20,083 nucleotides of DNA from a virus. The notes beneath the pieces are model-generated. The model was not told the origin of the DNA. It saw nothing but the letters and a program-made list of their open reading frames with translations, and did no database searches. Both the position numbers and the translations under genes were made by a program. The stretch is from positions 1 through 20,083 of IMG/VR virus record IMGVR_UViG_3300049893_000373; one strand, 5' to 3'. How positions within the stretch are numbered: position 1 is the first letter of the stretch; every line of letters starts with the position of its first letter. Positions 2,294 to 12,642 of the stretch are shown here, in pieces.

Positions 2294-2806
2294 CTATCCC
2301 TGTCTGCTCCAATAGCCTAAAAACGGCTTTAGAGCCTGATTCTGTGGCATATATTGGTAGAGCCTGTCGCGTGGGATAAACCAGGTATTTTCATTGGGTA
2401 ACTTGAACTCAGGGATGCGCCCCATTTTGACAGGTAGAAAGCCTGCCAGGAATAGACGATCGATGGATGAGCCTTGTACCAAAAAGGCTAAATCTCCATC
2501 TCTATCGTAGGTGCGCAGGATGAGGTTCTCACTCCTCGACCAGCGCACCTCGATATTTTCGCCCACGTCAGCGAATTCCTTGAATGTGTTAAGGCCATTC
2601 CACGGTAGATCTAATAAACGAGCTACGGCGATTTCTGCGCCATATGCCATCGTCATTTCCCATTTACGTTCGTGATCTGATTTCCAGGGAACGGCTCGTG
2701 TGTGTGGTTTATCTGTTTTATTTTGATCTATCGACCAGCGGATAAATTCATCGGCGGCGTCTCGAGCTAGATCTTGATCTTGGCTGGACAGCTTTAGCGG
2801 CCTCAT
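2294..2806 (-). CDS. Unknown protein, possible PD-(D/E)xK nuclease
   Basis: 170 residues. A stretch with E58 (GAEIAVARLL), D80 and E86-V-R88 (ADVGENIEVR) followed by a strand-rich segment resembles the PD-(D/E)xK layout, with Arg in place of the usual Lys. Later positions such as FLVQGSSIDR and WFIPRDRL fit alternating strands and helices of that fold. If correct it would cut or trim DNA, in line with the adjacent Rad52-like annealing protein; exonuclease and annealing protein pairs are common in phages. The active site is atypical and I did not recognise the family, so the function is tentative. The start at 2806 lies within the end of the Cys-rich frame at 2748-2957. A terminator-like hairpin follows the stop. 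Confidence 0.65.
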   Translation of the reverse strand: MRPLKLSSQDQDLARDAADEFIRWSIDQNKTDKPHTRAVPWKSDHERKWEMTMAYGAEIAVARLLDLPWNGLNTFKEFADVGENIEVRWSRSENLILRTYDRDGDLAFLVQGSSIDRLFLAGFLPVKMGRIPEFKLPNENTWFIPRDRLYQYMPQNQALKPFLGYWSRQG

Positions 2807-2957
2807 CCTTCTCTCTCTTTAGGTATCTATGAACGTCGTTAATTGTCTGTATAGACACATCCAGGGCGAAAAACCATCGACAACACTCGCAATATCGCCA
2901 CGGTTTATCGCCTCGGATGCGGATCTGTAGGTCATCGAACGTTAGCTCTTTTTCCAG
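2748..2957 (-). CDS. Cys-rich small reading frame without a normal start codon
   Basis: Between the Rad52-like gene and the nuclease-like gene the minus strand holds an open frame of 69 codons that looks like protein: DDLQIRIRGDKPWRYCECC, then a helical ALDVSIQTINDV and RYLKREKDE, and a tail of Ser and Arg. The CECC cluster suggests metal binding. No ATG, GTG or TTG occurs at its start; only CTG at 2957 is available. It is in the -1 frame of the Rad52-like gene and the two overlap for only 19 bases, which include the run TGG-AAA-AAG. A -1 slip there would join it to that protein. Alternatives are a CTG start or a one-base error in the A run. The competing ATG frame (2819-2935, 38 residues) looks less protein-like. 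Confidence 0.5.
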   Translation of the reverse strand: MEKELTFDDLQIRIRGDKPWRYCECCRWFFALDVSIQTINDVHRYLKREKDEAAKAVQPRSRSSSRRRR

Positions 2958-3619
2958 GGCTTACCGTCCATTGATAAAGGCGTACAGGCCTCGCTATATG
3001 GCTTACGCTGGCAGAAAAGACCCTCATATGGCTTACCTGTATTACTTGTACCGCTGCGGTAAATACGGCAGTCGAAAGAGCCATATTTACAGTGCGCTTC
3101 TCCTCCAGGTGGTATCACTATTGGAGCTGGATCATCAGGTCGCTGCTCTTGTAAGAATTCTGCTAGAGCTGGACTTTCGGTTTCGACAGGTTTTAACGGC
3201 GGTACAGCTCGCAAGGTTGGCGCGACAGGTGCTACCTCGCTCGCTGTACCAGGATTGCTATCAGCGCCCCATAAATCGAGAGCTACTCCAAAACGCATAG
3301 CGGCGTTTTTAATAGCGTCACTGATAGCAGTCTTTACCGCGTCGGCTCCTTTTTGATGCGGCTCGGAGGCTCCATAACCGATTCGCGTTACGCCGCAGAT
3401 GGTCAGCTTGATCCATAGACCGTTATGGTCATCAAGTATCGGCATCCCAGTTTCACCGATCGCCATCGGTTGCCAGTACCAGGTCGGATCTACTGATATC
3501 AAGCGGTCGGTGACTACCGCGTGATTAATAAAATTATACGATCGAGAGCCTACGACTTTTTTCTCGACTAAATCATCCTTAAATGAAGCGCGTAGAGCTT
3601 TAGCTTGTTTTTCGTCCAT
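2942..3619 (-). CDS. Rad52-family single-strand annealing protein with Cys-rich tail
   Basis: 225 residues. Residues 10-118 fit the Rad52/Rad22 annealing fold: RSYNFINHAVVTDRL near 26-40, strand segments, then KGADAVKTAISDAIKNAAMR at 90-109 followed by FGVALDLW, the signature helix of the family. Such proteins coat and anneal single-stranded DNA in phage recombination and end repair. A Pro/Ala-rich linker (120-175) leads to a C-terminal block with H176, C177, C184, C203 and C212 around GTSNTGKPYEG, probably a zinc-binding module. The ATG at 3619 overlaps the previous stop as TAATG, implying translational coupling. The gene ends in KPWKKS; the A run there may permit a frameshift into the next frame. 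Confidence 0.8.
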   Translation of the reverse strand: MDEKQAKALRASFKDDLVEKKVVGSRSYNFINHAVVTDRLISVDPTWYWQPMAIGETGMPILDDHNGLWIKLTICGVTRIGYGASEPHQKGADAVKTAISDAIKNAAMRFGVALDLWGADSNPGTASEVAPVAPTLRAVPPLKPVETESPALAEFLQEQRPDDPAPIVIPPGGEAHCKYGSFDCRIYRSGTSNTGKPYEGLFCQRKPYSEACTPLSMDGKPWKKS

Positions 3620-12217: not shown

Positions 12218-12642
12218 TTACCTCCTCCGCGGCGCCATCGCCTTTCGACTTTGTGCCTGTTCCTGCAAGATAAACTTTATCGCTGCGTATATGGCTGGGT
12301 CGCTTGCAAGTAAATCGTTAGGAGATATACCTGTAGCTACCGACACGGCTGCGACCTCCCATATGTCGCCGCGTCGGTCTATCCATTTTTTGGATCGATA
12401 ACGAAATCTACATCCTTATAAGAATTTAGAAATGCGTCATCAAGAGGCCCTGATATCTCGCCTTTAGCGGTCATCAAGTAATGCGCGAACCACCATAGAT
12501 CGGACTCACGCTGTTCATCGATGAGGCGCTTACGCCATCCGACTTTGAAATGACTTTCAAAAGCCACTTTAGCCGCTGGCGTAAGCTCGTAATCAACCTC
12601 TTTATTATCTTTTTTTGTTACTCGGATTAATTGCATAGCCAT
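12218..12642 (-). CDS. Tail assembly chaperone, long -1 frameshift product (GT-type)
   Basis: The short chaperone frame ends at 12379, but a second frame in -1 register continues to a stop at 12218 and encodes 55 residues beginning WIDRRGDIWEV and including ISPNDLLASDPAIYAAIKF, which is clearly protein-like. The stretch shared by both frames contains CCA-AAA-AAT, a run of six A. A -1 slip there joins 86 residues to 55 and gives a 141-residue protein. Tailed phages with long non-contractile tails almost always make such a G/GT pair that wraps the tape measure protein during assembly. The extension has no ATG near its start; a GTG with GGGAGG upstream exists within it, so independent start is a weaker alternative. 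Confidence 0.8.
12379..12642 (-). CDS. Tail assembly chaperone, short product (G-type)
   Basis: 87 residues, directly after the major tail gene, with AGGGGGC 5 bases before ATG at 12642. Sequence features: a short N-terminal strand with basic residues, YELTPAAKVAFESHF (18-32), GWRKRL, and a Trp-rich helix SDLWWFAHYLM. The content and position match the first tail assembly chaperone of actinobacterial siphoviruses, where 'Lt..a...fE...g......l......i..laW.a' is common. It would be the main product, with the extended form made by frameshifting just before its stop. Confidence 0.8.
   Translation of the reverse strand: MAMQLIRVTKKDNKEVDYELTPAAKVAFESHFKVGWRKRLIDEQRESDLWWFAHYLMTAKGEISGPLDDAFLNSYKDVDFVIDPKNG
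12385..12391 (-). other. Probable slippery site for the -1 frameshift
   Basis: Minus strand A-AAA-AAT in the chaperone frame, preceded by CC. The zero frame meets TAG six bases later, and the -1 frame stays open for 55 codons. Possible downstream pairing (GCGAC/GTCGC) is short and begins about 15 bases away, so I see no strong stimulatory structure. Slippage at the preceding CCA-AAA would alter just one residue of the product. Confidence 0.7.

Follow-up and report, generated by a model that had tools for sequence, protein, structure and literature searches.

Bacteria and phages hold translationally coupled, overlapping gene pairs, joined at NTGA or through longer overlaps, in which the downstream gene starts with ATG, GTG or TTG in −1 register within the end of the upstream gene. 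Coupled starts lying upstream of the stop have been documented, as in the lysis gene of phage fr, at −38 nt (PMC12548453). A different mechanism, programmed −1 frameshifting of the dnaX type, uses the site A_AAA_AAG, which is an efficient heptamer in bacteria, where A_AAG alone constitutes a minimal element and the stimulator usually lies 5–9 nt 3′ of the slip site (PMC5009743). Here we describe a junction in a viral record (IMG/VR IMGVR_UViG_3300049893_000373, 20,083 nt, hereafter called the window) that has features of both. It shares with coupled pairs a −1 register start within the end of the upstream gene, a stop 13 nt downstream and a dense one-strand operon, but its gene would start with CTG and the coupling is putative; it shares with dnaX an A-rich stretch of Lys-Lys codons followed by a hairpin, but the run reads G_AAA_AAG and the hairpin is spaced 26 nt away.

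The upstream gene belongs with PHROG 3290, the Mycobacterium phage single strand annealing proteins (SSAPs), to which the window SSAP shows approximately 50% identity over 117 residues. In phage Mutaforma13 the gene that follows encodes an HNH endonuclease and overlaps by 4 nt, an arrangement different from that of the window. Sister phages carry small Cys-pair genes in the same slot and register, with a start at or close to the same position in the SSAP C-terminal codons; their proteins have two Cys pairs (CPQC...CWGC) and ATG/GTG starts, and no sequence similarity between them and the window protein was found. The relatives of this phage infect actinobacteria. The following features define the locus:

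2942–3619, minus strand: SSAP gene, Rad52-like, with a Cys-rich C-terminal tail (PHROG 3290 and Pfam Rad52_Rad22).
2748–2957, minus strand: small overlapping gene, read here from CTG 2957, 69 codons plus stop, MEKELTFDDLQIRIRGDKPWRYCECCRWFFALDVSIQTINDVHRYLKREKDEAAKAVQPRSRSSSRRRR.
2294–2806, minus strand: next gene, PHROG 18407, of unknown function, with ATG and its own purine-rich ribosome-binding site.
2955–2957, minus strand: CTG, the proposed start, formed out of the SSAP Pro-Trp codons CCC-TGG and invariant in seven genomes.
2963–2969, minus strand: Shine–Dalgarno (SD)-like GGACGGU, 5 nt 5′ of the CTG, with 3+3 anti-SD pairs and one interruption.

An earlier note, made from the letters of this DNA alone, had described the upstream gene as Rad52-like with a Cys-rich tail, and profile matches to PHROG 3290 (E 3.6e-44, residues 3–120) and to Pfam Rad52_Rad22 (above cut-off) support the Rad52-like assignment. 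The tail itself (2978–3151, minus strand) also aligns with the C-terminal portions of two profiles, PHROG 364 (ribonucleoside reductase class II) and, below its cut-off, Pfam Phage_gp49, and is apparently a module common to unrelated phage proteins. The small gene sits between the SSAP gene and the PHROG 18407 gene that usually follows it, in a tightly packed minus-strand phage operon. Its stop-to-stop frame (2748–2960) holds 70 sense codons with the 5′ end GCC-CTG-GAA-AAA, or 69 counted from CTG 2957, and is bounded by an in-frame TAA immediately 5′ and by the stop TGA at 2748–2750. It overlaps the SSAP gene by 19 bases (2942–2960) in −1 register and the PHROG 18407 gene by 59 nt. Codons 1–34 include no ATG, GTG or TTG, and the first such codon is a GTG (codon 35) that is replaced by GTA in L001 and by CTA in L005. 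The coordinates, 19-base overlap and A run given in the earlier note are all correct.

The small-gene frame is a genuine protein-coding gene under purifying selection. A search of a viral collection found it in six more viral contigs (96–100% identity; L083, 90% over the aligned part), and, with the overlaps left out, it runs uninterrupted through all seven genomes, each of the other five frames containing 1–5 stops. Its variable sites, counted outside the downstream-gene overlap, fall at codon position 3 in 19 of 25 cases (P = 1.6e-5). The small-gene frame has a pN/pS ratio of 0.107 (SSAP, 0.04), whereas the two remaining sense frames give 1.6 and 1.9; random placement of the same changes gave a ratio as low in 0 of 400 trials. 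Thus, the proposal that this frame looks like real protein yet has no ATG, GTG or TTG start is upheld, and there is strong support for a real coding region that lacks a normal start. Of the five variable sites in codons 6–12, four are synonymous and one exchanges Asp and Glu, so translation probably starts 5′ of codon 13. Codon usage in the small gene does not resemble that of a gene, yet is uninformative at such short length. Antisense coding across the region was also considered and ruled out, the frames being interrupted.

To place the junction in its family, the SSAP 3′ end was compared across 78 loci. The junction could be read in 65 other relatives, of which nearly all carry a −1 register gene starting at NTGA (−1) or at an NTG at −10, −13 or −16. 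In the close non-carriers L017 and L019–L047 (72–75% SSAP identity), the downstream gene begins at the SSAP stop, where TGG-AAA-AAATGAGGCCG supplies ATGA; in L019–L047 the gene beginning there (ATGA) is the PHROG 18407 homologue. A different small gene of approximately 79 codons has the same start at the SSAP stop in L007–L016, L018 and L048, and the downstream gene of L049–L056 begins with GTGA (ATGA in L055). The small Cys-pair protein occupies the slot in L057–L061, L063–L067, L069, L070 and L073, with a possible ATG/GTG start 10–16 nt before the stop: the sole possible start is GTG at −10 in L057 and L058, taken from Pro-Trp CCG-TGG where the CCC-TGG of the window gives CTG, and ATG at −16 in L070 and L073, while the cognate NTG is ATG in L059–L061 and L063–L066. 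Slot genes in all these clades have the same −1 register as the small gene. Across the family, ordinary start/stop overlaps in this slot produce this register, and frameshifting is therefore not needed to account for it. The slot holds a Cys-pair protein, a 79-codon gene or none, depending on the clade, and is a turnover site for small genes.

The most economical, and in our judgement probable, reading is that the small gene is translated from a CTG start coupled to SSAP termination. CTG is a rarely used start codon of translation table 11, and it alone, with no ATG, GTG or TTG, is available in all seven genomes. It falls inside the last SSAP codons, at −13 relative to the stop, and is the same CCN-TGG-derived NTG that relatives use; the genome is tightly packed and has numerous overlapping starts. 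The SD-like site pairs with the anti-SD at −6.8 kcal/mol, better than 24 of the 33 canonical starts of the window and than L057–L061, which use the same start position (−2.2 kcal/mol), although approximately 5% of random 20-nt stretches equal it. Ribosomes ending SSAP synthesis at TAA 2942–2944, 13 nt past the CTG, would re-initiate at CTG 2957, to which they could be delivered because the SSAP stop is only 13 nt downstream, with GGACGGU aiding re-initiation. A separate 69-residue protein would then be made from within the last SSAP codons, and weak initiation would yield it in low amounts relative to the SSAP. We infer CTG use, coupling and low expression alike. CTG initiation, listed earlier as one alternative, is thus the best supported of the readings through the slot register, the cognate NTG starts and the SD-like site.

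Several observations weigh against a CTG start. A start-codon selection in mycobacteria gave no enrichment of CTG, at 0.03% compared with 20–29% for ATG/GTG/TTG (PMC4633059). Any change at the third base of CCC, the Pro codon, would be silent and produce ATG, GTG or TTG, yet none of the seven genomes has one, against 61 third-position changes elsewhere in the SSAP gene. The SD-like match is imperfect, ordinary gene calls assign a CTG start to no other gene of the window, and simple coupling does not explain the following invariant tract:

2944–3019, minus strand: invariant tract at the SSAP 3′ end, running up to the stop codon, 76 nt, identical in seven of seven genomes.

This is the longest invariant run in the 2452-column alignment (the next is 44), with a permutation p of 0.003 within the SSAP gene. 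Together with the poor activity of CTG and the missing silent changes, it would fit either a deliberately weak start or an element for recoding, and recent recombination could also be the source of the tract. We found no RNA structure in the tract beyond chance and no credible promoter, terminator or Rfam element, and a DNA-pattern search for the junction returned, besides the six contigs already known, just one match, L109, which is unrelated. The other SSAP clades have no such invariant 3′ tract.

The strongest competing explanation, which we consider unlikely, is a programmed −1 frameshift: a fraction of ribosomes decoding AAA-AAG before the SSAP stop would slip, producing the SSAP fused to the Cys/helix/basic domain (PWKK-ELTFDD...). 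Two further features bear on it:

2948–2954, minus strand: G_AAA_AAG run, the proposed slip site, containing the A_AAG tetranucleotide.
2856–2921, minus strand: long hairpin inside the small gene, 29 pairs and a 3-nt loop, 26 nt 3′ of the A run.

The A run (plus-strand T2949–2953) is embedded in TGG-AAA-AAG-AGC-TAA, just 5′ of the SSAP stop, and its A_AAG is a minimal bacterial −1 element (PMC5009743). A normal start is absent from all seven genomes, silent changes improving the start codon are likewise absent, the tract at 2944–3019 that holds the slip site is invariant among the seven and a strong hairpin lies downstream. However, the 5′ base is G, so that the site G_AAA_AAG forms no X_XXY_YYZ heptamer of the A_AAA_AAG kind, and the hairpin begins 26 nt downstream, outside the 5–9 nt range, and shows no two-sided compensatory changes; the first 78 nt 3′ of the slip site, where a stimulator at that spacing would lie, are no more stably folded than shuffled sequences (z 0.0). 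The A run is plain Lys-Lys codons, conserved in the SSAP, and is even longer in relatives using ATG; codons at its position in relatives are AAA-AAA, AAG-AAA or CGA-AAA, with normal downstream starts. The slip site and register are invariant in the seven close genomes, inside the 76-nt tract, but other clades show no link between them and the small gene, and ordinary gene overlap explains the identical register.

In the comparison with homologous phages put forward earlier as a check, the −1 register and A run are kept in the seven carriers, no relative was seen to have the two proteins as one continuous fusion, and distant relatives have other genes with normal starts. The register and A run on which a −1 frameshift from the Rad52-like gene had been proposed are indeed present; the mechanism is not their best explanation, given the ordinary register of the slot and the lack of a heptamer or close structure. 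It is accordingly doubtful that a fraction of this Rad52-type annealing protein acquires a second Cys/helix/basic module through a short −1 shift just ahead of the SSAP stop; that a minimal G_AAA_AAG site acts with an unusually conserved upstream element, as part of the same proposal, we rate as equally tentative. We keep frameshifting as a minority explanation because CTG is a poor start in mycobacteria, no silent start improvement is seen and the 76-nt tract is invariant. A limited search of open-access literature turned up no phage annealing protein for which frameshifting is described.

The hairpin at 2856–2921 has z values of −4.4 to −4.8 in the window, −5.3 in L006 and −1.9 in L005; with 7 of 666 scanned stretches giving z below −4, it is notable but not unique. 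As a candidate conserved RNA it was rejected: 96.6% of cells are paired, but there are no two-sided changes and shuffles equal it. Elsewhere on the minus strand, very strong hairpins are predicted within the PHROG 18407 gene (2454–2563, z −6.0) and in the non-coding stretch behind that gene (1974–2293, z about −4).

Initiation at another non-standard codon (CTA at codon 6, ATC at codon 13 or codon 15), or at the GTG of codon 35 inside the frame, is improbable. ATT acts as a start in mycobacteria (PMC4633059), which makes AUU/AUC-type starts conceivable, but no SD precedes the ATC codons (+0.3 kcal/mol), substitutions of the coding type already occur 5′ of them and the GTG is not conserved, being GTA in L001 and CTA in L005. 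Still less probable is that there is no gene, only a chance open frame around the hairpin, or that a 38-codon ATG frame in the SSAP register (2819–2935) is the real product: the strong hairpin, the non-gene-like codon usage of the small gene and the ATG frame MTYRSASEAINRG..., likewise open in all seven genomes, would agree with this, but pN/pS is 0.107 in the small-gene frame against 1.6 in the ATG frame. A sequencing or assembly error, in which one base lost or gained at the short A run hides a normal gene or a fusion, had also been raised and is very unlikely, because the junction recurs letter for letter, save TAA/TGA, in six other contigs, which come from four IMG datasets.

The protein encoded by the small gene has the CECC cluster, long predicted helix (residues 25–58) and Arg-rich basic tail that had been described, as its sequence and an AlphaFold2 model agree; the mean pLDDT of the model is low to moderate at 67.8, higher in the helix and too weak for a fold search. 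The basic tail is encoded where the small gene overlaps the downstream one, which partly determines the sequence of the tail. We found no family match or remote homologue in PHROGs, Pfam, NCBIfam, phage records or GTDB genomes, only weak zinc-finger-like and other matches among PDB sequences (E 0.57 and worse), no copy elsewhere in 32 relative records and no relatives outside the clade. Because the protein combines a Cys cluster, a helix and a basic tail, and because sister phages put a small Cys-pair, zinc-ribbon-like protein in the same slot, a plausible guess is that it may bind nucleic acid and assist the recombination module.

Another −1 register pair occurs in the window upstream of the tape-measure gene (12218–12642, minus strand). 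Frame 12379–12642 ends in CCA-AAA-AAT-GGA-TAG, with A_AAA_AAT at 12385–12391, and a stop-free frame, 12218–12415, overlaps it and then extends past it. Position and layout suggest a tail-chaperone G/G-T frameshift; the pair has no PHROG match.

The small gene is of a known kind, an overlapping small phage gene, and its non-standard start is the main unusual point. Gene callers limited to ATG, GTG and TTG miss it in every genome of the clade, and substitution patterns recover it. With translation from the CTG, the SSAP Pro-Trp codons (CCN-TGG) would give the next gene its NTG, so that one silent base would set the start strength of the neighbour. The CCN-TGG junction may thus offer a clean test of a weak CTG start against frameshifting in an apparently actinobacterial phage.
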